Under the pieces are notes generated by a model. That model saw only the letters and a list, made by a program, of their open reading frames with translations. It did not search any database and was not told the DNA's origin. The position numbers and the translations under genes were made by a program. Source: a virus. From it: a stretch of 64,000 nt of DNA. The stretch spans positions 1 through 64,000 of IMG/VR virus record IMGVR_UViG_3300011934_000017, one strand, 5' to 3'. Below are positions 2-17,656 of the stretch, piece by piece. Numbering within the stretch: the first letter of the stretch is position 1; every line of letters begins with the position of its first letter.

Positions 2-2650
2 GGTTCTCCGACAATGGGCGAAGGGCAGAGTCAAGACCTTGTACTTGAAGTTACCTATCAAGACGGTACTACTGAGCCACGCACTGCTTTCGAGTGGGCA
101 AGCTCTAACACCGCCGTAGCTACTGTGAATGCTTCCGGCAAAGTGCAGGCAGTTAACAATCTGCTGTCCAATCGTACTCTTATCATTTCAGCCGAGTACA
201 AAGAAAACGGTAAGACGGTAACTGCCAATCTGTCCCTGACTGTGACTGACGACACGAACTATCCTGTGAGTGCTGCTATCAAAGGTCCTGAAACAGTTAA
301 CGAAGATACTACCGTTACGTACACCCTTGAAGTTACCTTCCAAGATAGCTCTAAGGCCGTGCAGCCTGTATCGTCGTTTACTGTCTCTGACTCAGCGCTT
401 GGTACTATCACAAGCGATGGTCGCCTGACAGCGCCAGCTACAGTTTCTTCCAATGTTACTGGTCAAGTTCTTGCTGACTACACGCTAGATGGCACCACTG
501 TTTCGGCTGTTCTGGATATCACTGTTACAGACATTACGGTTTATCCTGCGTCTGCTAACATCATCGGTCCGTCTAACGTCGATGAAGAGTCTTCAACGAC
601 CTACATGTTAGAAGTCACCTTCAGCGATGCTACCAAGCGTAACGTAACGGTCTCTGATTGGGCAAGCAGCGATAACACAGTCGGTGTTATTGGTGCCTCT
701 ACAGGTGTTCTGAATACCCTGACAATCAGCGACGATTCTGCAATTTCGATTTCTGCAAGCTTCACAGAAAACGGCGTCACGGTGTCCGATAGCAAGAACA
801 TCATTGTTTCGGACACCACGAACTATCCAGTTAGCGCTGTTGTTCAAGGCAACAATGTTCTAACAGAAGGTGGGGGTGCAGTTACCTACAGCTTGAACGT
901 TAGCTTTAGTGACGGGCAGTCTCAGATAATGCCTGCTGCGTGGACTCAGACCAACACAAACGCAGGTACGCTAGACGCTTCGACAGGTTCGTTTATTCCC
1001 GCTTCCAACATTGTAGGCGGCGATAAGACAACCAAGATCGAAGGCACGTATACGCTGAACGGACAGACCGTGAAAGCTTCTGTCAACGTTACTGTTGAAG
1101 ATTTGACAGCTTATCCGACTAGCGCTACAATCGTTGGGCCTACAAGTGTAGATGAAGAAACAACGGTTACATACGAACTGCGTGTGGACTTTGATGATTC
1201 TTCTACATTGACCGTTCCAGCTACCGACTTCACTTCCAGTAATCCTGCTGCGGGTACAATCGACTCTGCTACAGGTGAGTTTGTCGCTGCTGTTAACGAT
1301 ACCGGCAGCAACGTATCGACGACGATTTCCGCATCATGGGAAGTTGATGGTGTTGTTCAGACAGGTACGCTGAACGTTGGTGTTGTTGATACCACAGTGT
1401 ACGTTGCTTCTACTCAGATCATTGGCCCAACAACACTCAATGAAGGTGAGTCAGCTACATACACCTTTGAACTAACCTACGATGATGGTATTTCCGCTAT
1501 TGTTGTAGTTCGTGATTGGGCTGTAGACAACACTACTGCGGCGACCATTACACAAGATGGTGAGCTTACCGTAAATAGCATCACTTCTGATCGTAACGTA
1601 ACGATTACAGCTTCTTATACGGACGATAAGGGTGTGCCGCACGGACAGTCTTTGATCGTTGACCTGAAAGACACGATCCTACGTCCTGTGTCGTTGCAAA
1701 TCAACGGTCCTGCGACTTTGCTTGAAGGTAGTCCAGGCACGTACTCTTCCGTCGTTACTTACGACAACGGAAGCACTGCTGGTGCCACTGTGACAGACTG
1801 GGCAATCACGCCCACAAGTCTGGGCAACTTCATTGGAAATGACCTTACTTCCAACGATATTGATGCAGACGAAAGCGGTACTATCACATGTTCCTATACT
1901 GAAAATGGAAGCACTGTATTTGGAACCAAGCCTATCACCGTGGAGCATATCTATCCCGATGGTGCTACGGTAACAGGCGTTGCTACTGTTAGTTCAGATG
2001 AGGTACAGACTTACAAGCTGTCTGTTTCACGTAGTGACGGTTCTAACACAGATGAAGTCGCCGCTTGGTCTATCAATTCTCAGATCGACGTTGATGGAAA
2101 TCCTGTAGTAGCGCCAGCCACCATTGACAGTGCTGGAGTCTTAACTGTTGGTACCGTTACAGAGGACGTTACGATTACCATCGAAGGCACATACGTTGAG
2201 AACGGTGTTACCGTTTCAAACACTCTTGACGTTGCTTTGGTAGTTAGCTTAGTTTCTGCTACCGCTGTGCCTAAGTGGGGCTTTGCAGGTTATGTGACGC
2301 CTGACTTTAACGTTGGCTTCTCTGGTCCACAAGCTTTCATTGACTCTCTTGTTAATGAAATGCCTGATCGTGAAAGCGGTCACACAATCACCTATCAGCT
2401 TGCTGCTGACGAGTATGCGTATTATGCTTGCCCGAAAGACATGGGTGAACCTACGTTTGTAGACATGGCAAGCAGCTTCAGCGGTGGTTGGGATGGGGCT
2501 TCGTGGTTAGATGATTATTCTAATCTGGATAATAAAGGTCCTGTAGAAGTAATGTACGATGCAGGAAATGGACCCGAACCATGGCTTATTTATCGTACCG
2601 ATTGGACGGGTCCGAATAGCAGTCCCGTCAATTTTCGAATTGACTTTTAA
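2..2650 (+). CDS. Ig-repeat tail fibre/adhesin, 5' end outside window
   Basis: The reading frame is open to the left edge (codons before the first ATG at 14 read G-S-P-T, matching the repeat consensus), so the gene starts upstream. About 750 residues are seven to eight tandem ~90-residue beta-sandwich repeats of the bacterial Ig-like type, each opening with a P-x-S-A-x-I-x-GP-x-x-V-x-E pattern and a T-Y-x-LEV-x-F-x-D strand; boundaries fall near 259, 538, 823, 1111, 1399, 1681 and 1951. The last ~125 residues (from about 2270) form a different domain with WDGASWLDDYSN and YRTDWTGP motifs, shared with the genes at 3431 and 4029. Ig stalks with a variable tip are typical of virion fibres or host-surface adhesins. 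The exact virion location is inferred. The gene is followed by an intrinsic terminator. Confidence 0.75.
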   Translation, partial: GSPTMGEGQSQDLVLEVTYQDGTTEPRTAFEWASSNTAVATVNASGKVQAVNNLLSNRTLIISAEYKENGKTVTANLSLTVTDDTNYPVSAAIKGPETVNEDTTVTYTLEVTFQDSSKAVQPVSSFTVSDSALGTITSDGRLTAPATVSSNVTGQVLADYTLDGTTVSAVLDITVTDITVYPASANIIGPSNVDEESSTTYMLEVTFSDATKRNVTVSDWASSDNTVGVIGASTGVLNTLTISDDSAISISASFTENGVTVSDSKNIIVSDTTNYPVSAVVQGNNVLTEGGGAVTYSLNVSFSDGQSQIMPAAWTQTNTNAGTLDASTGSFIPASNIVGGDKTTKIEGTYTLNGQTVKASVNVTVEDLTAYPTSATIVGPTSVDEETTVTYELRVDFDDSSTLTVPATDFTSSNPAAGTIDSATGEFVAAVNDTGSNVSTTISASWEVDGVVQTGTLNVGVVDTTVYVASTQIIGPTTLNEGESATYTFELTYDDGISAIVVVRDWAVDNTTAATITQDGELTVNSITSDRNVTITASYTDDKGVPHGQSLIVDLKDTILRPVSLQINGPATLLEGSPGTYSSVVTYDNGSTAGATVTDWAITPTSLGNFIGNDLTSNDIDADESGTITCSYTENGSTVFGTKPITVEHIYPDGATVTGVATVSSDEVQTYKLSVSRSDGSNTDEVAAWSINSQIDVDGNPVVAPATIDSAGVLTVGTVTEDVTITIEGTYVENGVTVSNTLDVALVVSLVSATAVPKWGFAGYVTPDFNVGFSGPQAFIDSLVNEMPDRESGHTITYQLAADEYAYYACPKDMGEPTFVDMASSFSGGWDGASWLDDYSNLDNKGPVEVMYDAGNGPEPWLIYRTDWTGPNSSPVNFRIDF

Positions 2651-2660
2651 TCAGTAACCT

Positions 2661-2684
2661 AAGGGCGAGTACGCTCGCCCTTTT
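2661..2684 (+). terminator. Intrinsic terminator after Ig-repeat gene
   Basis: A perfect 9-bp stem (2661-2669 with 2674-2682) closed by a TACG tetraloop is followed by a short T run. It sits 10 nt after the stop codon of the Ig-repeat gene. Confidence 0.85.
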
Positions 2685-2704
2685 ATCTCAAATGAGGTGT
2701 TAAA

Positions 2705-3415
2705 ATGGCAGTCCCACTTACGTCGTTTCTTTCGAAAGCTAGTCCGGCAATTCCGTTTCTGTTGAAAGACACAGACTTGCGCGGGGGTTATCGCGTTGTG
2801 TCTACAGAAGCCGATCGTGACGCTATCCCTACAGGTGCGAAAGCTCCAGGTATGTTGGTGTTCGTAACAGAAAACTCTACGTTCTTCCAATGGGATGGTG
2901 CAGCATTCCAACCGTTGGACGTTACGTCTATGGTAAATACCGGTACCGGTCTTACTATGGAAGCTGACGCTATCACTGTTGATACTGCACATCTGGATAC
3001 GTTGTACGCCCCGGTGACACACGATCATGATGCCAAGTATGCTGATATCAACCACGATCATGATACCCAGTATTCGGCGTTGACTCACGACCATGATGGT
3101 GATTATGCTCCGGCGACACACGATCATGATGCCAAGTATGCTGATATCAACCACGATCATGATACCCAGTATGCTGATATCAACCACGATCATGATGGTG
3201 ATTATGCTCCGGTAGTACACACGCATGATACCCAGTATGCTGATATCAACCACGATCATGATTCACAATACGCGGCGCTGACCCACTCTCACGCTTTTGC
3301 GAGTCTAACCGAAGTTCCGAAAGTAACAGCTATGCCCGGTGTTACTATTTCTACTTCTGAGCCTGCTCCTACTGACGGTGAAGACGGCGATCTTTGGTTT
3401 GTTATCGCACCTTAA
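2705..3415 (+). CDS. Tail fibre with HxH decapeptide repeats
   Basis: 236 residues. The N-terminal ~80 residues (VPLTSFLSKASPAIPFLLKD...) are clearly related to the N-terminus of the minus-strand protein at 51267-52067, so this is probably a shared attachment module. Residues ~103-200 hold nine H-x-H motifs spaced ten residues apart (HDHDxxYADIN type), ending in HSH. In T4 gp37, HxH motifs in trimeric fibres bind iron ions along the needle axis; a similar metal-threaded trimer is inferred here. The C-terminus carries a short TDGEDGDLWFV element common at the end of phage fibre proteins. ATG at 2705, with GAGG upstream at about 2694. It follows a terminator, so it may have its own promoter. 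Confidence 0.75.
   Translation: MAVPLTSFLSKASPAIPFLLKDTDLRGGYRVVSTEADRDAIPTGAKAPGMLVFVTENSTFFQWDGAAFQPLDVTSMVNTGTGLTMEADAITVDTAHLDTLYAPVTHDHDAKYADINHDHDTQYSALTHDHDGDYAPATHDHDAKYADINHDHDTQYADINHDHDGDYAPVVHTHDTQYADINHDHDSQYAALTHSHAFASLTEVPKVTAMPGVTISTSEPAPTDGEDGDLWFVIAP
3016..3073 (+). repeat. 58-bp perfect direct repeat, copy 1
   Basis: This 58-bp stretch is repeated without mismatch at 3115-3172 (offset 99 bp). Both copies encode HxH decapeptides of the fibre and keep the reading frame. Confidence 0.9.
3115..3172 (+). repeat. 58-bp perfect direct repeat, copy 2
   Basis: Identical to 3016-3073. Recombination between the copies would remove 33 codons in frame. Confidence 0.9.
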
Positions 3416-3430
3416 TCGTTAGGAGGTTCC

Positions 3431-3979
3431 ATGGCTATTCTTACAAAACATCAAGGTACCATACGGAGTCTGAGTCGAGAAGATGTAGTCTTTAAACAAG
3501 GCGGTACGACAGTGCCGCCGGAACAAGGACTCATTAAAGTCTCCGATGTTTGGTACCCTCTGTTTCCCGCACTATCTCAAGCACATTGGGGTTATGCTCA
3601 ATACGCCGGACCCGATCTGATTGAAAATGGTTATTTGGGTCCTCAATCGTTCATTGAAGAAAATCTGACTTCACGACTTCCAGTTAAAAGTGGTGAAACT
3701 CTTACGTATAATCTGCCGGACGGTCAAACGTATGCGTACTTTGCCCATCCTGTTTCCTTTGGCGTTGCCTTGTTTACTGATCTAACAAGTAGCTTCCAAG
3801 GTTCGTGGGATGGCGCTAAGTGGTTAGATGACTTTTCTAACTTTGATGAAACTGGTCCTATTGAAGTCACTTTCGACGACGGTACTGGTCCTGCACAATG
3901 GTACGTATATCGTACTGATTGGGCGGGTCCTAGTTCTGATCCTTCACCGTTCCAGATTGATTATCCAAATCAACCTTAA
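3431..3979 (+). CDS. WDG-domain virion protein, paralog 1
   Basis: 182 residues, function not recognised. The N-terminal ~50 residues (LSREDVVFKQGG..., ending VWYPLF) align with the N-terminus of the next gene. The rest (from about residue 53) is the domain seen at the end of the first gene: WGYAQY, GPQSFIEE, SSFQGSWDGAKW, TGPIEVTFDDGTGP and VYRTDWAGP. A good AGGAGG Shine-Dalgarno (3421-3426) precedes ATG 3431. Its position between fibre genes suggests a small accessory adhesin or fibre tip; that is inference. A terminator follows directly. Confidence 0.7.
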   Translation: MAILTKHQGTIRSLSREDVVFKQGGTTVPPEQGLIKVSDVWYPLFPALSQAHWGYAQYAGPDLIENGYLGPQSFIEENLTSRLPVKSGETLTYNLPDGQTYAYFAHPVSFGVALFTDLTSSFQGSWDGAKWLDDFSNFDETGPIEVTFDDGTGPAQWYVYRTDWAGPSSDPSPFQIDYPNQP

Positions 3980-3984
3980 CGCTC

Positions 3985-4015
3985 AAAAAGCGGCTCTTTT
4001 GGGCCGCTTTTTGTA
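3985..4015 (+). terminator. Intrinsic terminator
   Basis: A perfect 10-bp stem (3985-3994 with 4003-4012) has an 8-nt loop, and its 3' arm ends in five T's. It lies between the two WDG-domain paralogs, so they need not be co-transcribed at equal level. Confidence 0.9.
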
Positions 4016-4028
4016 TCTGGAGATAATA

Positions 4029-4628
4029 ATGTCTGTTATAGTAAAAGACAGCGATGCACTTAAAAACATAACGCCTGCCGAATTTAAAATCAAACACTCT
4101 GGAAATGTAGTATCGCCGTTAAAAGGTTTGCTAAAGCACTCTGGAACGTGGCAACCTCTTTGGGCGGATACGTCTACAGAACCTGACGAACCAGCTACAG
4201 ACTCCCCTCTACCTGCAGGTGTTCCTCGTTGGGGAATTGCGCAATTTGCAGACACAGACTTCACAGGCGGCAAAACTGATCCTAACGCTGACGGTCAGCC
4301 CTATCAGCGCTGGACAGGCCCGCAAGACTTCATTGACACCATGTTGCAGACCTATGATTCGTCTTTGACTGTTACGATGGATGTTCCTTTTCCCGACTAC
4401 GGCTACTTTGCTGTTAAAGCGTCTGATGGTCAAGCTACTTTCTTAGATTCTCAGTACGGCTTTCCAGGTGGTTGGGATGGTGCTCAGTGGGAAGATGGTG
4501 GATTTGGTTCAGAAACTGGGCCTATCACAGTGACTTACGATGACGGTTCCGGACCTGCTCCTTGGCTTGTTTATCGCACAGATTTCTCTGGCATAGGCCA
4601 AATGACGTGGAATGTAACTATTGCATGA
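4029..4628 (+). CDS. WDG-domain virion protein, paralog 2
   Basis: 199 residues. ATG 4029 with GGAG at 4019-4022 is preferred; the frame is open further upstream but would cross the terminator and the preceding gene. Full-length paralog of the gene at 3431: N-terminal EFKIKHSGNVVSPLKGLLKH, a Pro/Glu/Ser linker, then WGIAQF, TGPQDFIDT, GGWDGAQWEDG, TGPITVTYDDGSGP and VYRTDFSG. The domain differs from its siblings by an insert rich in D, N and G near residues 78-92. Function unknown; likely virion surface, by context. Confidence 0.7.
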   Translation: MSVIVKDSDALKNITPAEFKIKHSGNVVSPLKGLLKHSGTWQPLWADTSTEPDEPATDSPLPAGVPRWGIAQFADTDFTGGKTDPNADGQPYQRWTGPQDFIDTMLQTYDSSLTVTMDVPFPDYGYFAVKASDGQATFLDSQYGFPGGWDGAQWEDGGFGSETGPITVTYDDGSGPAPWLVYRTDFSGIGQMTWNVTIA

Positions 4629-4631
4629 GTG

Positions 4632-4637
4632 TAAATA
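4632..4637 (+). promoter_or_regulatory. TAAATA box, possible late promoter
   Basis: GTGTAAATACTATG lies 51 nt before the ATG at 4688. TAAATA recurs in several + strand gene gaps and resembles the core of T4 late promoters (TATAAATA). A promoter role is inferred. Confidence 0.3.
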
Positions 4638-4687
4638 CTATGTAAATCGCGGTGTCTCAAGCCCGCTACTATACCATAGGAGGTATT

Positions 4688-6157
4688 ATGTTTTTTGTTT
4701 CTATTGCGGCAAAAGGAATCGATCCTGAGGCATTTGCGTGGCTAGTTTTTACTCGTTCCACGAAGATGCAACTCAAAGGGTACAATCAACGCCACACTCT
4801 AGTTCTGTCTAAGGGTGATATATTTGGTGTCCGCAGAACCCGCTCAAACACCTACCAGATGGTAAAATCTGATTCTCTCCATGTCCTGTATCGCAACGTG
4901 CCTGCCGAAACATACAATCGTATTCTGAAAAATTGCATTGCATACAAAGGCACTCCTATTACGGAAGAAGAGGTAGAAGATGGCTTTAGTAGGAGTCGGC
5001 GAGTCTCTACCACAGAATCCACTCAGAAGTCCAACAAGCGAACGGATGACTTTTATAAACCGGGTTCTCGCATAATTGAGAAGTACCAGATTGATCAGAA
5101 TAACTATCAGTGGCGCAAGCTGCGAGAAGCTAATATCAAAGTGCTGTCTAAGAAACAAGGCAAGATTAAAGGGCTACTTAACTCTGGCGATGTTATAGGT
5201 CTTCGATACTCTACACCTGCACGCGGTGGTTACGTTCTTCTTGACGGAAACAAACGAATCAACATATCTCATGAAATGTACTCCGAACTTGTTCATGCTT
5301 CCCGAGTGCTTCCTGATTCTCAGCAAAAAGATGATGTGGTCGATCTTGGAAGTGGTTTGTCTGATTCTGAAATAAAAGAAAAGATGCAGGAAGAGGCCAA
5401 AGTTGCCAAAGAGCGAAAAGCCAAGAATGCTCCTGCGCCGGTAGAGGAAGAGCCTATCGAAAAGCTGTATGATATAGGTGATCTTTCAGACGACGAGCTT
5501 CTGGAACAAAATACATTCAAAAAAGACAAACGCAATCGTAATCTACGGCGAATGGTAAGAAAGCTGTTGGAAGTACCGGAACAAGATGTTTGGGTAGACG
5601 AAGATGAAGCTAAAGAAAAGGACTTCGAGGATGAAGAGCTGGAAGATGTAGATGCTGAGTCGGAAGCTCCAGAAGAGTCTGAAGACTTTGAAGACGAAGA
5701 GGATAACGACGATGGACTGGACGATAATCTTTCCGATGACCTTCCTGATGATTCTGATAACGACGATTCTGACGGTGAGTTTGAAGACGAGGAAGACCTT
5801 GAAGATGAAGAAGACCCAGAAGAAGCCGAACGCAAAGAAAGTCGAGTAGTTGAAGAGCTGCAACCTGGAAACATTGTTCAAATCAAGAAAGGAACTAAGC
5901 GGAAGCTTGTTGTTATTGACGCTTCTCCTATGGAAAGGAATGAGAATTTAATAGAGTATATCCTGCATGATCCAACAGCCGACGAAGACGACCAAGACTT
6001 TAGCTTATATAGGCTGCGTCTGAACGTTAATACCACTTTTGCTAAGTTCGAAGAAAGTGCGGACCTTTTGGATGAAACATTCGATGACAAACAGTTAAAA
6101 GCAATACAGGACTCTATGGAATATGCTGACATTAAATCTATCTCTTTCGTCAAATAG
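4688..6157 (+). CDS. Acidic protein of unknown function, probable virion or assembly protein
   Basis: 489 residues from ATG 4688, chosen because a full AGGAGG (4678-4683) stands 4 nt upstream; an in-frame GTG at 4652 lacks this. The N-terminal ~220 residues contain two weakly similar segments, each with an (S)GDxxGxR strand followed by a Y-x-x-hydrophobic stretch, suggesting a duplicated small beta-barrel. Residues ~300-390 are extremely acidic (D/E runs with S) and probably disordered. A basic-hydrophobic element (QPGNIVQIKKGTKRKLVVID) follows at about 397-416. No family recognised. It is 10 nt upstream of the ligase start. Confidence 0.6.
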   Translation: MFFVSIAAKGIDPEAFAWLVFTRSTKMQLKGYNQRHTLVLSKGDIFGVRRTRSNTYQMVKSDSLHVLYRNVPAETYNRILKNCIAYKGTPITEEEVEDGFSRSRRVSTTESTQKSNKRTDDFYKPGSRIIEKYQIDQNNYQWRKLREANIKVLSKKQGKIKGLLNSGDVIGLRYSTPARGGYVLLDGNKRINISHEMYSELVHASRVLPDSQQKDDVVDLGSGLSDSEIKEKMQEEAKVAKERKAKNAPAPVEEEPIEKLYDIGDLSDDELLEQNTFKKDKRNRNLRRMVRKLLEVPEQDVWVDEDEAKEKDFEDEELEDVDAESEAPEESEDFEDEEDNDDGLDDNLSDDLPDDSDNDDSDGEFEDEEDLEDEEDPEEAERKESRVVEELQPGNIVQIKKGTKRKLVVIDASPMERNENLIEYILHDPTADEDDQDFSLYRLRLNVNTTFAKFEESADLLDETFDDKQLKAIQDSMEYADIKSISFVK

Positions 6158-9290: not shown

Positions 9291-10868
9291 ATGGCCCACG
9301 TTACTTTAAGGCTGTTTGAATCGACAGCCATTTCTAAACCCAGTAGGATGCATTCAGACAAGAAAGCCAAGTCTAAAAAGCATATTGGTAATCGGTTTAA
9401 ACGATTGACCAAAGCTCAGTTTCTTGATCTGGCTACAAAAGAGCAGGCTCGATACCTTGATCACTTTCCTAAGTCTAGTCATAGAAAGCTAGTAGGTTCA
9501 AAAGGTAAGAAAGGTAAAGAACAGCCTGCGGTACAACGACGCAAAAACGCTAAGAAGGCCGAACCTGCAAAGCCGAAAGAGAAAGAAAAGCCTAAGAAAG
9601 AACGCATTAAAAAGCTTTCCCGCGAAGACTTTGATAGGCTTTCTAATAAGGAACAGAAGGCATACAAAAAGGCGTTTCCCAAGAACTCCTTTAAGGGAAA
9701 AAAGCATCACGTTGCCAAAAAGAAAAGCATAGTAGAGAAGAATAAGACGGGTGATTCAGGAGAGACCGTACTCACCGGTTCTCCAGATGCGAAGAAAAAG
9801 AAGAAAGCTGAAAAGAAAATACTAAAAGCAGGACGCGATAAAGCCAAGAGTGAACTTCGCCACAGTGTTACTCAAGAATCCGTAGATGCTATCAAAAGAA
9901 CCTCTCCCGGCGATCTTAGGGAAGCAAGCGAGAATCTTAAACGCAATAGAAACGCTAACGTCAAAGCAATAGAAGAAACCTTAAAAGGTGGTTCCGACTT
10001 TGATTCTTTTTCTTCTCAAGAGATAGATAAAATTCAAAGGAACTTGAAACAAGAGTCTGAGAAAGAAGACCCCGATCTTCCCGAAGAAACTATAAAGAAA
10101 GGAAAGAAACTGGCCGATCGATTGAAGCCGGATGCGCCTCAAGAGTTAACAGAAGATGAACTTCGCGTTATATCTGATATTCACCCTAAGCGCAAAAAGA
10201 AAGAGCGCTTCTGGCAGAAAGACTTGAAGGTACTCAAGGGTCTTGTCACAGGCGAGAAAGTAGAACCAGAAGGTAGAAGTAATGCGATGTTGGCGCTGGG
10301 TGTTGTAGCTCGCTATGCTTTAATTGCTGGTGCTGTTACGGCTGTTTCTATGGGCGCAGCGCCTGCCGCTTTGCATATAGCACAATCGCTGTTTGAACAG
10401 TGGGATTCCTTTAATGTTTCTGCTTCTACTGATCTTTTATCGGATGATGAAGAGAACGAGGAAGACGAAGAAACACGGAATACCATAGGTCTTGCTTATG
10501 ATGCTGTAGCCGACTATCTACAAAACGTGGATCATGAAGAGTTTGTACAGTCCATTGATAGCACGTTCCTTGAGTTTCGCGCAAAAGCTTCTAGCGATCC
10601 ATACCTAATGTCACTTTTGTTAAAAGACTTGTCGTTGGTTGAAGACTGTTGCGAGCTAAACGATGCGGGTGCTTTGGTGTTAGCTGAAGCTGACATAGTT
10701 ATGCAAAAGCTCCAACCTCTTTTGGAGGAAGCTGGCTTCAATCGCGTCAACGATATCTTCTATCGTGGAAATGACGCTGTTGGTGTTTATGCGTCTGGAC
10801 ACAGAAGTAAAATCCTTTCTCTTCCTTCTCCTTCCACTATTGTTGACGATATAATGGAGACACAATGA
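9291..10868 (+). CDS. Lysine-rich protein with one membrane segment, head region
   Basis: 525 residues, function not recognised. The first ~180 residues are Lys/Glu rich and hold two copies of a ~30-residue motif: KRLTKAQFLDLATKEQARYL (about 36-64) and KKLSREDFDRLSNKEQKAYK (about 105-134), both ending near FPKxS. Residues ~331-365 form a hydrophobic Ala/Gly-rich segment that could span a membrane. An acidic patch (DDEENEEDEE) and a helical C-terminus follow. It begins the run of head genes, so an internal head, core or injected protein is possible. The stop overlaps the next start (ATGA). Confidence 0.55.
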   Translation: MAHVTLRLFESTAISKPSRMHSDKKAKSKKHIGNRFKRLTKAQFLDLATKEQARYLDHFPKSSHRKLVGSKGKKGKEQPAVQRRKNAKKAEPAKPKEKEKPKKERIKKLSREDFDRLSNKEQKAYKKAFPKNSFKGKKHHVAKKKSIVEKNKTGDSGETVLTGSPDAKKKKKAEKKILKAGRDKAKSELRHSVTQESVDAIKRTSPGDLREASENLKRNRNANVKAIEETLKGGSDFDSFSSQEIDKIQRNLKQESEKEDPDLPEETIKKGKKLADRLKPDAPQELTEDELRVISDIHPKRKKKERFWQKDLKVLKGLVTGEKVEPEGRSNAMLALGVVARYALIAGAVTAVSMGAAPAALHIAQSLFEQWDSFNVSASTDLLSDDEENEEDEETRNTIGLAYDAVADYLQNVDHEEFVQSIDSTFLEFRAKASSDPYLMSLLLKDLSLVEDCCELNDAGALVLAEADIVMQKLQPLLEEAGFNRVNDIFYRGNDAVGVYASGHRSKILSLPSPSTIVDDIMETQ

Positions 10869-11209
10869 GTAGAATATCCTATCGCTGTCTTCCTGAAGAA
10901 CGTGGAACCCCAATCTCAGAGAAGTCTTTTTGGCATGTTTATAAAGACGGAACTTGTATTGGCAAAATAGATACAGAAGGTGCTTCAACGATAAGCCCTA
11001 ATCTACGTATTTGGAATCCCGTTCTATTCGAGTCTGAGTTTGATCCGTTTGAGTTTCCTCATGCGGATAGTCGTGAAGGTATGACTGAAGCATTTGTAAC
11101 GACCAACGATGAACCTGAGTATGATCACCAGTTAGAGCTTCAACCTAACACGCTAATGACTCTTCATGAATCCAGAATGTGGATTCGAAATATAACTAGG
11201 AGTGAGTAA
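10865..11209 (+). CDS. Hypothetical protein in head operon
   Basis: 114 residues, no recognised domain. The start overlaps the previous gene by 4 nt (ATGA), indicating translational coupling. Moderately acidic with several aromatic residues (SFWHVYKDG; MWIRNITRSE at the end). Lies directly upstream of the prohead protease. Confidence 0.55.
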   Translation: MSRISYRCLPEERGTPISEKSFWHVYKDGTCIGKIDTEGASTISPNLRIWNPVLFESEFDPFEFPHADSREGMTEAFVTTNDEPEYDHQLELQPNTLMTLHESRMWIRNITRSE

Positions 11210-11242: not shown

Positions 11243-11986
11243 ATGGCTCTCATGCAATCAATCAGTTTTAGTATCGGTTCGAAGCCTACGGAGCTTCACG
11301 GTATAAGCAATAAGCGACGTGAGGTACGTCTAGGTAAGCAAGCTATAGGTGAAGAGCGCACTATCGACGCTAACCTATGGCTTCCCCGCGCTGCCGAGCA
11401 TTATCACATTAGTCCTAAGCTGAGTGACTATATTCTGGTGCCAGTACCTTCGCTTATTTCAGAGCTTCCCAATACCAATGGTGATGCTGTTACGAAAGAA
11501 GAGTTGATGCGTTTTCATCCAGACGTAGGTATGCTTGCTTATCAAACGTGGCGTGGAAAGCCTACGCATATTGAACATGCTAACAAGGATATCACACAGG
11601 CTAAAGGCATTATCTTTGATGTATTTTTGCGTCGTGTTGCTCCTCAGTACATGGGAGGTCACGTTAAAGTCGTTAAACTCTTGGGCTTTGATCGTACAAA
11701 AGACCCTGTACTGTGCCAAGCTATTCTGGATCGAAAGATCAATACCTACTCGCTTGGTATGTATTTCAAGTCTTATCAGTGTTCCCTCTGTGGAAATGTT
11801 GTTTCGCAAAATGGTGGTCATGCTTGTCAGCACACGCGCCCACGTCGAAAGACATACAAGGCCGCAGACGGTCGTTTAGTCTATCGTCAATGTCAGTCCA
11901 TTATGGGCTTCGAGACAAGCGCTGTTGCCGATCCCGCCTTCGTCTCGGCTAACAGCGATATCATTCTTAATCCTTCTGACCTGTAG
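11243..11986 (+). CDS. Prohead core serine protease
   Basis: 247 residues. Predicted capsid maturation protease of the phage prohead/herpes assemblin fold, which cleaves scaffold and capsid proteins inside the prohead. Supporting pattern: NTNGDAVTKEEL (about 76-87), GKPTHIEHANKD with candidate catalytic His109 or His112, then INTYSLGMYF with candidate nucleophile Ser170; His-Ser spacing is close to that of T4 gp21. Directly after the Ser strand is a zinc-binding-like insert CSLCG...HACQH. The C-terminal GFETSAVADPAF is typical of the family. AAGGA precedes ATG 11243. Position before scaffold and capsid fits. The third catalytic residue was not assigned. Confidence 0.75.
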   Translation: MALMQSISFSIGSKPTELHGISNKRREVRLGKQAIGEERTIDANLWLPRAAEHYHISPKLSDYILVPVPSLISELPNTNGDAVTKEELMRFHPDVGMLAYQTWRGKPTHIEHANKDITQAKGIIFDVFLRRVAPQYMGGHVKVVKLLGFDRTKDPVLCQAILDRKINTYSLGMYFKSYQCSLCGNVVSQNGGHACQHTRPRRKTYKAADGRLVYRQCQSIMGFETSAVADPAFVSANSDIILNPSDL

Positions 11987-11993
11987 GTGATCT

Positions 11994-12500
11994 ATGCGCC
12001 ACATGATAGCACTAGCTGATGCCAAGTGGGAAATCGGGCCGTACACAGGAAAGAATGGTATGTACTGTGCTGTTCAGCCTGATACGTTGTCTCTCCTCAC
12101 TCTGGTAGAACTGTGTAACGATCTAGGTGTTGTGTCTGATCCACGCAAGTTTCATTGCACGGTCATGTATAGCAAAGAACTTGCACCGGAACTTCCAAAA
12201 GGTTTAGACTTGACAGCAAAAGGCTACATTAATCATATTGAATGGTGGGCAGGGCATGATGAAAAAGGCTATTTAACTGCCTCTATTCGAAGCCCTGAGC
12301 TAGAGTCGCATCATGCTGTTCTAAAAGAGTTAGGTGCTAAACATTCCTACGATTCGTACAGCGCTCACGTAACCTTGACTTCTGGAGTTAAGTTTACAGG
12401 CGCTTTACGAAGGGATGTTATTGGTATCAACAATCAGTTATCTCGGCGTCCTATTCCTGTCGTGTTCGATAGATTCTCGATTAGCGACGTTAAGGACTGA
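11994..12500 (+). CDS. 2H phosphoesterase, candidate anti-CBASS Acb1
   Basis: 168 residues. Two H-x-T motifs, FHCTVMYS (His54/Thr56) and AHVTLTS (His125/Thr127), define the 2H phosphoesterase superfamily (2'-5' ligase-like, cyclic phosphodiesterases). The size, GMYCAVQ before the first motif and the FHCT-x-x-YS form resemble Acb1, the T4-type phage enzyme that hydrolyses cyclic oligonucleotide signals of CBASS defence. Assignment to Acb1 rather than an RNA-processing 2H enzyme is inference. It starts 7 nt after the protease stop with an AGGTGA Shine-Dalgarno, so it is made with head proteins. Confidence 0.65.
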   Translation: MRHMIALADAKWEIGPYTGKNGMYCAVQPDTLSLLTLVELCNDLGVVSDPRKFHCTVMYSKELAPELPKGLDLTAKGYINHIEWWAGHDEKGYLTASIRSPELESHHAVLKELGAKHSYDSYSAHVTLTSGVKFTGALRRDVIGINNQLSRRPIPVVFDRFSISDVKD

Positions 12501-12599: not shown

Positions 12600-14618
12600 A
12601 TGAAAAAGTCCAGCGCTACTCTGCGGGGTATCGTGGTCGCAGGTGATTCCCGCGAAGAGGCGGAAAATCACTATCGTGCGGTAGCTACCGGCCTTTCAGT
12701 TCAAGCACTTCAGGACGAGGAACAATCGTTCGTTATCCTGAGCAATGCGGACTCTGAATTGTCGCTCATGAATCCTCTAACGGGGGATATGAGTTTGGTA
12801 GAAGCCAGCGACCTGAATACAGATAGCTTTGAATTCCTTGCCAGTGGCGAAGATGAAAAAGTAAAAGTGTTCTACACCCTGTGCTCTGACGGCTGTGGTA
12901 GTCATATCATTGCCGATGACAGCGAACTCATGGTTCGTTGCCCTGTATGTGCCTCTCAGCTTCAAGACCTGGATGCTGAAGACATTGCAGAATACGAAAA
13001 CGATATTGCCGAATCTTCTGACGATTCTGAATTGGATTATGATGAAGAAGATGATGCCGATGATACCGTCGAATCTTCCTCCGCAATGATCGTTGCCGCC
13101 GATTCCAAAGAAGCTGCTGTTGAAGCGTTTCGTAAGTTGGCTGAAGGCGAAGACTCTCCTTCTGTTTATAACTGCGAATCTTCTCTGGTTGCTACGGCAT
13201 CTGATTCCGACTTCCAATTCAGCCCGTTTACAGGCGAAGCGGCCGAGGAAGAAGACAGCGTAGAGTCATTCGAAGTAGAAGCAAGTTCGGAAGAAGGGTA
13301 CGATGCTCACTACTACGTGTGTGCTTCTGAAGAATGTGGTTCTCATGTTATCGCTTCTAACGAAGATCCTGTATTCTGTCCTGTTTGTGCTTCCGGTCTG
13401 ATTGAGCCTGAAAATCTTTTTGACGCTCAAGCTTCAGATGACGACGAGGAAGATGACGACGAGGAAGATGACGACGATCTTCTGGATGGTCTTGATGACG
13501 AAGATGACGGTCTCGATGATGACGATGAAGCCACCGCTTCTGACGACGACGATCCTTGTTGGGAAGGCTACGAACAACGCGGTATGAAGATGAAAAATGG
13601 GAAGCAAGTTCCCAACTGCGTTGAATCGGGTGGCGACGAGGAAGACGAGGACGAAGACGAAGACCTCGATGACGATGAAGACCTCGACGAACTGGAAGAA
13701 GATGAAGACGACGAGGATGAGGATTTTGACGATAAAAATTCCATGTCCGTTTCGTCTGTACGTATCTTCGATGAAGGTGAGCTAGAGTCCGTATCTACCG
13801 ATCTTCTGTCGTTGGCGAGCGCCTCTTCTGGCGGTCTGGAAGACTCTTATCTGTCTGTTGCATTCGCAGGTGAGCTTGCTGGTACCCCAACCTGGCTTGC
13901 ACTGTACAACGGTCAAATCGTTGCTACCTCTACACCTGAAACAGCGAAAGGTGTTGAGCACAACGTATTCAATTCCGACGTGTACGCTAACCTGGTTCAT
14001 GCTTCTGCCAAAGAAAATGGCGTGAAAGAGGCTCTTGATGAACTCGGATTCAAACCGATTCAAGCTTCTGTGGACGTCGATTCTTATATCCAGGAAGAAG
14101 TCGCTTCTCGCGTAGAAGCGGGCGTTTCTTCTGTTCGTGATAATTTCGAACAGTCCAGCAGCGATTATGCTGCTCGCTTTGAGGCGGCCCTTGCTACCGC
14201 AGCTACTGGTGTAAACAAGAACTTCTTTGACGATGTTAAAAACCCTGTCAAATCGGCTCTTGCCTCTGCCATGAATAGCGTAGGTGTTCGGAACGCAGAT
14301 CGGCTTGTAGCTCAAGCTTTTGCCAAGCACAACGATGAATATCTGAAAGGCTTGGTCGCCAAGGCTTGTGAAATCATGGAATACGATGTATCTGTCCAGA
14401 ATCAACTGACTAAGGCAGTAGCATCTACTTCTCATGAACAGTCGGTAACCGCTTCTTCTGATTCCAGTGATTTGGCTATCGGTCGTCCTGTTCACTCAGA
14501 GCAGCCGTCAGATCAAAGTCAGAATGTGCGTCAAGAAGCCGTTGCGTCTGCGGACTCGAAGCCCAAGGTAAATTTGGACACTGTTCTTTCAACACTCGGC
14601 CGCCGGGGCCGCAACTGA
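12600..14618 (+). CDS. Scaffold/prohead core candidate, zinc-ribbon duplicated, acidic
   Basis: 672 residues between protease and capsid genes, the usual place for scaffold. A module is duplicated in the N-terminal half: an IVVAGDSREEAENHYRAVA-like helix (residues ~10-28 and ~162-182) followed by a C-x(3-4)-CGSH...CPVCAS zinc ribbon (about 91-121 and 238-267). A very acidic region (~270-385) contains an island, CWEGYEQRGMKMKNGKQVPN (about 320-339), with the look of a conserved phage prohead motif. The C-terminal ~290 residues are mixed alpha/beta, with a VASRVEAGVSSVRDNFEQ helix. AGGAA precedes ATG 12600. Scaffold function is inferred from context. Confidence 0.6.
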   Translation: MKKSSATLRGIVVAGDSREEAENHYRAVATGLSVQALQDEEQSFVILSNADSELSLMNPLTGDMSLVEASDLNTDSFEFLASGEDEKVKVFYTLCSDGCGSHIIADDSELMVRCPVCASQLQDLDAEDIAEYENDIAESSDDSELDYDEEDDADDTVESSSAMIVAADSKEAAVEAFRKLAEGEDSPSVYNCESSLVATASDSDFQFSPFTGEAAEEEDSVESFEVEASSEEGYDAHYYVCASEECGSHVIASNEDPVFCPVCASGLIEPENLFDAQASDDDEEDDDEEDDDDLLDGLDDEDDGLDDDDEATASDDDDPCWEGYEQRGMKMKNGKQVPNCVESGGDEEDEDEDEDLDDDEDLDELEEDEDDEDEDFDDKNSMSVSSVRIFDEGELESVSTDLLSLASASSGGLEDSYLSVAFAGELAGTPTWLALYNGQIVATSTPETAKGVEHNVFNSDVYANLVHASAKENGVKEALDELGFKPIQASVDVDSYIQEEVASRVEAGVSSVRDNFEQSSSDYAARFEAALATAATGVNKNFFDDVKNPVKSALASAMNSVGVRNADRLVAQAFAKHNDEYLKGLVAKACEIMEYDVSVQNQLTKAVASTSHEQSVTASSDSSDLAIGRPVHSEQPSDQSQNVRQEAVASADSKPKVNLDTVLSTLGRRGRN

Positions 14619-14638: not shown

Positions 14639-15325
14639 ATGATCCAGCAAAAATACACTCGTGTTTTTAGCACTGAGCACCGCCCTGTCGAAACGGGCGT
14701 TATTATTGAAGACGAGGGTATGGCTCTTGTTTTCGTTCGTGAAGGTGATCGTACTGTTGTTCGTCCTTCTACTGGTGCATCCGGTGAAAAACTTGCAGGC
14801 TTCTCGCTTGCTCGTAACTGCCCACCGCAATTCCTTCCGTTCGTTCAAGAAGGTATCGTTGAAGGCGCAGAGCTTGAACTGCCGCGTACTCCGATCGCCG
14901 GTCAAATCCTGGTTCGCATTGACGGTGAAGCTGTCACCGTAGCTGCTTCTGCTGACGCTCCTTCAGCCGCTGATACCGTCAGCCTCGAAGACAACGTTAT
15001 TCGTTTCCACGGCTCACACGCCGGTAAAGAAATGATCGTGCAAATGATGTTCGAGCCGACTGTTACTGAAGCTCGCCAGTATAACGGTGACGCACCTGTT
15101 GGTGGCCTACCGTCTTCTGCACAAGGTGTTATCGGTGTCATTCGTAAGGGTGACATTGCGACTACCTACTACGACGCATCTGCTGATTGGTCAAGCGCCC
15201 TTTCGTGCAAACTTGGTCCGGATGGTATCCTGACTACTGAAGGTCCTGGTACAACTCCGAGCGATATCACTATTCTCTCGACGCCTACTGCGGCAAATCC
15301 TTTGCTAGTTATCAACATCGACTAA
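14639..15325 (+). CDS. Putative capsid decoration protein
   Basis: 228 residues, predicted mostly beta, Ala/Thr/Val rich, without membrane segment. It directly precedes the major capsid gene, where myoviruses and siphoviruses often encode a decoration or cement protein. Motifs such as GLPSSAQGVIGVIRKGD and FHGSHAGKEM are visible but not assigned to a family by eye. Shine-Dalgarno GGAG lies about 10 nt upstream. A small terminator-like hairpin separates it from the capsid gene. Role is inferred. Confidence 0.55.
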   Translation: MIQQKYTRVFSTEHRPVETGVIIEDEGMALVFVREGDRTVVRPSTGASGEKLAGFSLARNCPPQFLPFVQEGIVEGAELELPRTPIAGQILVRIDGEAVTVAASADAPSAADTVSLEDNVIRFHGSHAGKEMIVQMMFEPTVTEARQYNGDAPVGGLPSSAQGVIGVIRKGDIATTYYDASADWSSALSCKLGPDGILTTEGPGTTPSDITILSTPTAANPLLVINID

Positions 15326-15330
15326 TCAAT

Positions 15331-15357
15331 CTACTCTAAACAAAGAGTAGTTGTTTT
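15331..15357 (+). terminator. Terminator-like hairpin before capsid gene
   Basis: A perfect 7-bp stem (15331-15337 with 15344-15350) is followed by TTGTTTT. The AT-rich stem suggests partial termination or a processing site between decoration and capsid genes. Confidence 0.6.
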
Positions 15358-15380
15358 CTGACATAACGGAGATATTATCC

Positions 15381-16481
15381 ATGACAAGTCCGTACAAAGG
15401 CGCCAAGATGGTATTGGCCAACGGAAACCCGATCGAAGACATTCGTTTTGGCAACTCTAACCAACGCGCTCTCGACGGTAAAACTGGTGAGTTTAACGCT
15501 AACGACAAAGGCGAATTGACCCGCGCAATTTCACAGCTAATGGAAGCCGCAGCTTCTGGCCAAATCGTTGAATCCAACGAAGCGACCATGTCTGCTTCTG
15601 AAGAACGTGAAATGCGTCGTGAAGTTCTGGCCTCTGCTCTTAACGATGCTTCCGGTCAAGAATGGGCAGCACTGGGCTCCGGCCTTGCTCGCCAGATCAG
15701 TGAAGAAACTTCGCGTCAAGGCTTCCTGCGTCGTATCTCGCAAGGCCAAACGCTGCGCCAGGGTGAAGTACCGCGTGTTCCGATGCCCGCACACGACAGC
15801 ATTGCAATCGTCGCTACTTCAGCTTCCTCTGTCGGCTACCAGACTATTCGCCAGCGCGTATTTACTCCTGACGAATTTGAAATTCAGTCCAACGTTCGTG
15901 TTGAAAACCTGGATATCGAGCAAGTTAACGGTGACCTACTTGAGCACGCCTATAACGACGGCCTGCAAGCAGTAATGGTTGCTGAAGATAAGCTCTGGAA
16001 AAATGCTGCCGATAAGACTGTCGGTGTCGTGAACGACCTGGAATACATCGCTGGTGAACTGACTACCCGTAACCTGGGTAATCTGCGTCAAGCTGTAGCA
16101 CGTTGGAACCTGCCGGTTAACACTGCCATTATCAGTAACGACTACTGGGCAGATATCATTGGTAGCCAAGACTTCGCTACATTCCTGGATCCGATCACCA
16201 AGTATGATCTTGCTCTGAACGGTCAGATCGGTACTCTGGTTGGTATGCAACTGTTGACTGATGCTTTCCGTCAGCCGAACCAGAAAGTTCTGGGCGCTGG
16301 TGAAATCTACGTTGTTGCCAGCCCTGAGAACCACGCTGCTTACTCTACTCGTGGTGGCATTCGTTCTACTCCGACTTCTGGCGCCAACTCTGGTAACAGC
16401 ACACGCGGCTGGTTCCTGACGGAGCCGTTCAGTTTTGTTTTGGCTAACAGCCGTTCTGTTGCTAAAGGCAAGCGGGTATAA
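15381..16481 (+). CDS. Major capsid protein (HK97-fold type)
   Basis: 366 residues from ATG 15381 (GGAG at 15368-15371; an in-frame TTG at 15351 lies in the terminator tail and is rejected). Evidence: position after protease, scaffold and decoration candidates; the length; N-terminal helical region with many charged residues (~50-120) followed by a mixed domain with RQRVFTPDEFEIQSNVRV, LEHAYNDGLQAVMVAEDKLW, WNLPVNTAIISNDYW and IYVVASPENHAAYSTRGG, typical of myovirus HK97-fold capsids. Gly/Ser/Thr-rich loop near residues 333-345. Forms the icosahedral shell. Codons appear highly adapted, as expected for the most abundant virion protein. Confidence 0.85.
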   Translation: MTSPYKGAKMVLANGNPIEDIRFGNSNQRALDGKTGEFNANDKGELTRAISQLMEAAASGQIVESNEATMSASEEREMRREVLASALNDASGQEWAALGSGLARQISEETSRQGFLRRISQGQTLRQGEVPRVPMPAHDSIAIVATSASSVGYQTIRQRVFTPDEFEIQSNVRVENLDIEQVNGDLLEHAYNDGLQAVMVAEDKLWKNAADKTVGVVNDLEYIAGELTTRNLGNLRQAVARWNLPVNTAIISNDYWADIIGSQDFATFLDPITKYDLALNGQIGTLVGMQLLTDAFRQPNQKVLGAGEIYVVASPENHAAYSTRGGIRSTPTSGANSGNSTRGWFLTEPFSFVLANSRSVAKGKRV

Positions 16482-16612: not shown

Positions 16613-17656
16613 ATGCGAAGCGATTTTTATGTCTATGCACTCCTCGATCCGAGGAAACCCGGTAAGTATCGTTACGGTAAACTAAAGCTTGATTACGAAC
16701 CGTTCTACGTTGGTAAAGGCTGTAAGAAACGAAGCCACTCCCACACTTCGTCTATTAAGAAATCTATTGTTAGAGGAGTTTTAAAGCATTCCTATAATAA
16801 ATGGAAAGAAGGTAAGATTAGAAAGATTTTAGAATCTGGTGAAACTCCTATTGTGCGAATAATTAAGCGGAATCAGATCGAGTCCGAAGCTTTTAGACTA
16901 GAGACTAAAGCAATCCGTCTCATAGGCCGTAAAGGCAAAGGTCCTCTTACTAATCTTACAGACGGCGGTGAAGGTACTTCTGGTAGAATTGCCTCCAAAG
17001 AGACAAGAAGCAAACATACGGCTAATAACATTAAAATGTGGGCTGATTTATCCGAGGCCGATTATATCGCTAGATGTTTGTCTATTTCAAAAGGACATTC
17101 GCGTAGAACGCCTGAAGAACGTGAGGCTCTTCGCGCAAGGTACCGAGAGATTCAAACGAACCTGCCTGAAGAGATAGCGACCAAACGTAGTAAGCGTATT
17201 CGTAAAGCACTTAGAAAATACCGTAAGAGTATGACCGAAGAACAACGTTTAGCCGAATCCGCAACACTGTCTCGCGTCCAGAAAGCAATACGCGCACGGG
17301 AAACGGATGAAGCTAAAGTTGCCAGAAGCGCCGCTATCAAACGCGGATATGCTTCAAAGGATCGAAAGCAGATAGAGCAAAAGAACAGCAAAATAGCTGC
17401 CAAGATTCGCCAACAACACGCAACGGCTTCAGAGTATGATAAGCGTATGCGAAGCTTTAGTGTAATGGTAGGTGTTATGCTTAGGAACTACACGGATAAA
17501 GGCTTGATAGAACAGTCTAATGTTGATCAGATTAAACAACGCCTGCGTAGTTCCGCACAAAAGTTTTATTCTGCTGAATGTAATTTAACTCGCAAGCCCA
17601 ATGTTCTCCGTGAGAAAGCAAGGGTTGTTATTTTACAGTATGGAAGTGCAGCGTAG
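16613..17656 (+). CDS. GIY-YIG homing endonuclease
   Basis: 347 residues. The N-terminus has the GIY-YIG nuclease pattern FYVYALLDP (residues 4-12) and PFYVGKG (30-36) with downstream RSHSH and a Glu in ETKAIRLIGR; LTNLTDGGEGTSG closes the domain. A central to C-terminal region is very basic, with repeated S/T-x-ET/EE-R-x-x helix elements (SKETRSKHTANN and later copies), like the DNA-binding NUMOD3-type repeats of these enzymes. Such genes are selfish elements that cut a homologous unoccupied locus. It is free-standing between capsid and neck genes; the capsid gene is intact. Its AGGGG Shine-Dalgarno can be masked by the upstream RNA. Confidence 0.9.
   Translation: MRSDFYVYALLDPRKPGKYRYGKLKLDYEPFYVGKGCKKRSHSHTSSIKKSIVRGVLKHSYNKWKEGKIRKILESGETPIVRIIKRNQIESEAFRLETKAIRLIGRKGKGPLTNLTDGGEGTSGRIASKETRSKHTANNIKMWADLSEADYIARCLSISKGHSRRTPEEREALRARYREIQTNLPEEIATKRSKRIRKALRKYRKSMTEEQRLAESATLSRVQKAIRARETDEAKVARSAAIKRGYASKDRKQIEQKNSKIAAKIRQQHATASEYDKRMRSFSVMVGVMLRNYTDKGLIEQSNVDQIKQRLRSSAQKFYSAECNLTRKPNVLREKARVVILQYGSAA

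Follow-up and report, generated by a model that had tools for sequence, protein, structure and literature searches.

A putative Acb1-family phosphodiesterase gene directly behind the head protease of a PaBG-like giant phage

Does a 2H phosphoesterase gene lodged among the head genes of a large virus encode an antagonist of the cyclic-oligonucleotide-based anti-phage signalling system (CBASS), and what might place it there? The question arises from a 64,000-nucleotide stretch of viral DNA, positions 1 to 64,000 of the IMG/VR record IMGVR_UViG_3300011934_000017 (hereafter the window). The source record is a 220,237-bp virus which, by its major head protein, is kin to the Pseudomonas phage PaBG and to the phages Lu11, HRDY3 and Motura. 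The gene lies on the plus strand at 11994..12500, starts with ATG and encodes a protein of 168 amino acids (the window protein) carrying 2H phosphoesterase motifs. Judging from its sequence and a predicted structure, we consider it very probable that this is an Acb1-family 2H phosphodiesterase of cyclic di- and trinucleotides that would block CBASS. By profile and model it is a new member of a family that is already known; the PaBG copy is already named Acb1 in UniProt.

Family assignment and the active site

The window protein was matched by the Pfam family PF23474 (Acb1) with E = 3e-16, scoring 59.9 bits where the curated cut-off is 27, and by PHROG 755, the family of T4 57B that is labelled 'RNA ligase', with E = 1e-26. 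In single-sequence phmmer searches two Acb1 chains of known structure came up, 9q2g (E = 6e-10) and 7t26 (E = 7e-6). A profile of 15 relatives, run against the PDB, found BCSR5 Acb1 at 8e-31 and FBB1 Acb1 at 7e-24; after the Acb1 chains came the portal protein 8hds at 4e-6, and free-standing LigT-like 2H chains appeared only at 0.016 and weaker. PADLOC and NCBIfam searches returned no match for the window protein. An AlphaFold2 model (pLDDT 89.9, pTM 0.85) was then compared with known structures using Foldseek. The best matches were the BCSR5 phosphodiesterase (9q2y/9q2g, E 6e-12 to 8e-12, TM 0.75-0.78) and FBB1 Acb1 (7t26/7t27, E about 1e-8), followed by the Arabidopsis cyclic phosphodiesterase (CPDase) at 1.2e-3 and E. 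coli LigT at 0.25-0.35. Among viral models the top match was the PaBG 'Anti-CBASS protein Acb1' (8e-16). An earlier note on this locus, made from the sequence alone, had proposed an Acb1-type CBASS antagonist and not a LigT/CPDase enzyme. Both kinds of search bear this out: Acb1 stands far ahead of LigT/CPDase by profile, and the model lies nearest to the solved Acb1-type enzymes.

The two H-x-T motifs that the earlier note read in this 168-residue reading frame are exactly where it placed them, FHCTVMYS supplying His54 and Thr56 and SAHVTL supplying His125 and Thr127. In alignment (T4 residues numbered as in PMC9117128) these correspond to the catalytic tetrad H44, T46, H113 and T115 of T4/FBB1, which is unchanged in Acb1 copies 24-44% identical to the window protein. 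The aromatic base-stacking positions Y12, W74 and F107 are equally retained, as Y24, W85 and Y119, with a change from F to Y at the last. Since profile and fold both favour Acb1 and the tetrad and all three aromatic positions are kept, an Acb1 enzyme is preferred here over a LigT/CPDase enzyme.

Several features weigh against a simple equation with the T4 enzyme. Identity between the window protein and T4 Acb1 is only about 30%, the adenine N6-contacting E141 of FBB1/T4 aligns to S164, and the C-terminal lid tail with W147 is absent in the window protein and throughout its branch. Of the Acb1-specific nucleotide contacts to which the earlier note had pointed, the three stacking positions thus stand, whereas E141 and W147 are missing, as they are in the PaBG copy. 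Without these two residues the substrate specificity could differ from that of T4/FBB1. The E141 contact and the W147 lid are features of FBB1/T4 and not of the whole Pfam family, and PaBG, Motura and others likewise have a residue other than E at the E141 position. D165, next to S164, is invariant in eight aligned copies and conserved in the PaBG branch. Where the T4-type lid tail does not exist, the model has an additional helix at residues 136-151; the PaBG and Motura copies share this layout without a T4-type tail, and BCSR5 appears to. This altered C-terminus would predict the same chemistry under a different lid, possibly with a different base preference, and a branch without two FBB1 ligand-contact residues amounts to a natural experiment on how the specificity of Acb1 is determined. 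At the other end, a stretch of about 20 residues precedes the fold, with a pLDDT of 52 over residues 1-10.

The mechanism that we propose follows the characterised enzymes. T4 Acb1 and nine further homologues cleaved 3'3'-cGAMP and cAAA (Hobbs et al., PMC9117128). In the window enzyme the two HxT motifs would line a U-shaped pocket, in which a cyclic di- or trinucleotide would have its bases stacked against the side chains of Y24, W85 and Y119. The ring would be opened by metal-free acid-base catalysis. With the signal opened, CBASS effectors would stay inactive and the infection could be completed.

The head gene cluster and its relatives

The gene (acb1 below) sits directly behind a conserved neighbour, the head maturation protease (11243..11986, plus strand; phrog_18299, 3e-92), with a gap of only 7 bp. 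The ribosome-binding stretch TGTAGGTGATCT (11982..11993, plus strand, read directly from the sequence) overlaps the TAG stop codon of the protease, and the closest relative (L003) has a similar layout of ribosome site and stop, TGTAGGAGGATTC. This overlap, together with the short gap, points to translational coupling of protease and acb1, and acb1 is therefore probably co-expressed with the head genes. The region has 7 promoter-like sites where 7.7 would be expected by chance. Terminator-like sites exceed the chance level (15 against 7.5), but the 99-bp gap that separates acb1 from the next gene contains none of them, so these sites give no argument for a separate acb1 transcript. The enzyme would accordingly be made alongside the head protease, probably from one transcript, during head assembly. 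Such timing fits a late onset of CBASS, with which the appearance of T4 Acb1 activity about 15 min into infection coincides (PMC9117128).

The rest of the cluster, all on the plus strand, agrees with a head locus. Before the protease lies a small gene conserved in synteny (10865..11209; phrog_31356, 3e-12). Behind acb1, an acidic protein of 672 amino acids occupies the scaffold position (12600..14618; phrog_20988, 1e-120); it is named 'ATPase' in PHROGs and GenBank and has no Pfam match, and from its position and composition we infer a scaffold role. A virion structural protein (14639..15325; phrog_16710, 6e-81) and the major head protein (15351..16481; phrog_2522, 6e-104) follow, the real start of the latter probably being the ATG at 15381 (MTSPYKGAK) by alignment. 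The placement between protease and scaffold given in the earlier note thus agrees with the PHROG matches of the neighbours, the scaffold itself being a putative assignment. Its suggestion of a gene 'expressed late or possibly packaged' fared unevenly: gene order and the overlapping ribosome site favour co-expression with the protease, whereas gel proteomics of PaBG (below) does not list Acb1 among the virion proteins. Directly behind the major head protein we also observed a GIY-YIG nuclease gene (16613-17656, plus strand; PF22945, 7e-10) with a weak PADLOC match to PD-T4-3. This gene, perhaps a homing endonuclease, is also present in L003 and L014. The earlier note recognised no other counter-defence gene here, a remark that was checked against a small number of the window's genes.

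Related phages were then compared. A glycosyltransferase gene, two unknown genes, the protease and Acb1 follow one another in the window, in two related genomes (G001, locus L003; G012, locus L014), in PaBG, and in records of 277 kb (L060) and 228 kb (L062), with the space of 0 to 2 genes between protease and Acb1. A further genome (G014, locus L016) has the protease-Acb1 part of this order only, and in Motura a single gene separates the protease from an Acb1 upstream of it. The linkage of protease and Acb1 recurs in at least six lineages. Acb1 lies elsewhere in the genome in Yoloswag, JA11, Y3, fHe-Yen9-02, NCTB, Aura, PhiXhv-12, RHEph12 and BcepSauron, and no Acb1 was detected anywhere in the genomes of Lu11 and HRDY3, in which protease, scaffold and head protein genes form the same cluster. 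Almost every phage of this group has an Acb1, yet it is not tied to the head genes. Because Lu11 and HRDY3 have the head cluster without it, Acb1 is accessory and dispensable for building the head. No close relative came up when the window protein was used as a single-sequence query against IMG/VR and GTDB genomes; for the scan of relatives an alignment of eight was too diverse to use, and one of three sequences worked. Two public labels on Acb1 relatives are doubtful, namely 'RNA ligase LigT' in PaBG (NC_022096, O152_gp258) and 'prohead protease' for BcepSauron_269 (MK552141).

In the Erwinia, Dickeya and Yersinia relatives the slot between protease and scaffold is filled by another gene family, and Acb1 lies tens of kilobases from it. 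In four of these phages (L029, L044, L045 and L046) the slot holds a KMPT-N (PF20294) protein of about 360 amino acids, assigned to phrog_37079 for two of them, which is a candidate counter-defence or packaged protein. G014 carries two Acb1 copies, the first behind the protease (L016:6689-7204) and the second some 13 kb off, close to a DNA ligase gene (L058:5001-5495). The copy beside the protease is divergent, with a predicted TTG start and R at the E141 position; the other is standard.

An approximate tree of this short protein (FastTree) paired the window copy with that of G001 as sisters (0.98) and put both into the PaBG branch (0.80); the copies from Erwinia, Dickeya and Yersinia phages made up a clade of their own (0.996). 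Between the window and G001 the identity of Acb1 is 44%, while the major head protein reaches 90%, the protease 72% and the phrog_16710 protein 68%; a further two genes in the vicinity are about as divergent as Acb1 (40% and 47%). An arms race would lead one to expect such fast divergence, but other causes could too, and the figures suit that reading without proving it. A recombinational swap of acb1 in the window lineage was considered and set aside as unneeded, the window and L003 copies being sisters in the same place and fast divergence sufficing.

Packaging and other explanations

One extension of the Acb1 assignment, which changes the enzyme's delivery and not its identity, is that the virion carries Acb1 and delivers it into the cell together with the DNA, so that CBASS signals are destroyed from the first minute. 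We regard this as rather unlikely, although several observations speak for it. The linkage of Acb1 to the prohead protease is recurrent, and the copies linked to the protease begin with an extra stretch of roughly 14 to 30 residues that is absent in the unlinked copies of the sister lineages G013 and G014, a comparison that relies on predicted starts and on copies sharing a common descent. T4 acb1 adjoins ipI, an internal head protein gene (PMC9117128). Other phages have Acb1 domains inside a P1-type DarA head protein or at the C-terminus of portal proteins, and 2H-portal fusions had been noted before and proposed to be injected (PMC5512222). On the other side, none of the 14 gel-identified virion proteins of PaBG fits its Acb1 (19.2 kDa), in a method that sees abundant proteins only. 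The N-terminal stretches of Acb1 share no cleavage motif and the major head protein has no consistent protease site; by eye, no shared T4-type (LxE) or phiKZ-type (SxE) site was seen in the N-termini of the major head proteins or in those of Acb1. In T4 some 15 min of infection pass before Acb1 activity appears (PMC9117128), and the T4 copy is thus not usefully injected; related phages have Acb1 far from the head genes. A specific form for PaBG-like giant phages, in which Acb1 would enter the head by way of its N-terminal stretch during protease and scaffold action and the slot after the protease would be a cargo slot, likewise seems unlikely. If true, CBASS signals would be destroyed before any phage gene is expressed, and in the Erwinia, Dickeya and Yersinia members the cargo slot would be filled by other candidate injected proteins such as the KMPT-N protein.

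The DarA fusion was found in a P1-like virus (L084; IMGVR_UViG_3300047469_000197, 95 kb), where positions 2252-5608 encode a DarA protein of 1118 amino acids (NCBIfam DarA, 406.9 bits, cut-off 350). Its Acb1 domain (residues 795-935) has both catalytic motifs, HVT and HLS, and lies between parts matching P1 DarA 1-469 and 545-634. A 575-residue stretch with the Acb1 domain here replaces P1 DarA residues 470-544, and it is the only such fusion that we found. P1 DarA is an internal head protein that is ejected with the DNA (PMC12810830); if the L084 fusion is real in virions, it would be an injected anti-CBASS enzyme. An Acb1 domain also forms the C-terminus of portal proteins (PF06381) at L085:762-2783, in L086 and L088, and in Vibrio phage PP270 (L036:1678-3351), and the solved Pam3 portal (8hds) is the chain that matches the Acb1 profile. 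For the fusions described earlier, it was suggested that the 2H domains degrade defence nucleotides (PMC5512222). By sequence, these DarA and portal fusions make packaging of Acb1 conceivable in other phages, and together with the protease linkage they raise the question of whether phages inject Acb1-type enzymes ahead of CBASS.

A different enzyme altogether is quite improbable. Were the window protein a LigT/CPDase-type RNA-end processing enzyme (a 2',3'-cyclic phosphodiesterase or 2'-5' ligase) acting in RNA repair, the 2H fold would be the same, CPDase and LigT-like structures would be expected among the Foldseek matches, as they are, and the 'RNA ligase' name given to the family by PHROG 755 and RefSeq would be apt. 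Acb1 leads LigT/CPDase by orders of magnitude in both profile and fold, the Acb1-type aromatic positions are retained, and T4 57B, also 'RNA ligase' in public records, was shown to be Acb1 (PMC9117128); the label of PHROG 755 is a legacy name. Nor was a PF09414 RNA ligase found in the 220-kb record, which is possibly incomplete, with positive controls working; a PF09511 search of the same record was likewise without a match, although there the controls were also silent. Least of all do we expect a morphogenesis factor, a protease or scaffold cofactor with its enzyme activity lost or unused: acb1 does sit inside the head cluster in stop/start coupling with the protease, but every catalytic residue is retained, Lu11 and HRDY3 have the cluster without Acb1, and the Erwinia, Dickeya and Yersinia relatives fill the slot with another gene family.

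Comparison with known enzymes

As an Acb1 enzyme, the window protein shares the 2H phosphoesterase fold with E. coli LigT and Arabidopsis CPDase, whose Foldseek matches are much weaker (0.25 and 1.2e-3). With T4 gene 57B and FBB1 Acb1 (PDB 7t26, 7t27) it has in common the fold, the HxT/HxT tetrad and the equivalents of Y12, W74 and F107. T4 and FBB1 have the E141 and W147 lid, whereas the window protein has the extra helix and an N-terminal extension; the neighbours of T4 acb1 are 57A, gene 1 and ipI, in contrast to the head protease and the scaffold-position gene here. Acb1 of the Achromobacter phage Motura is also near the head protease, but upstream of it, while the window copy is downstream.

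The closest solved structure is Acb1 of the Burkholderia phage BCSR5 (PDB 9q2g, 9q2y), which is similar in length but only 23-24% identical to the window protein over the structural alignment. The alignment runs to within a few residues of the BCSR5 C-terminus, leaving no room for a T4-type tail, and the titles of the PDB entries speak of a lid in open and closed states although the sequence seems to be without such a tail. PaBG Acb1 (UniProt S5WBE5; O152_gp258) is 34% identical, has the same predicted fold (TM 0.83-0.87) and the same catalytic residues, and lies behind the same head protease. In PaBG, gp259 stands between protease and Acb1, and the scaffold and major head protein genes are about 130 kb away. 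To these enzymes the window protein adds a putative Acb1 from the giant-phage branch, placed directly between the protease and the scaffold-position gene.
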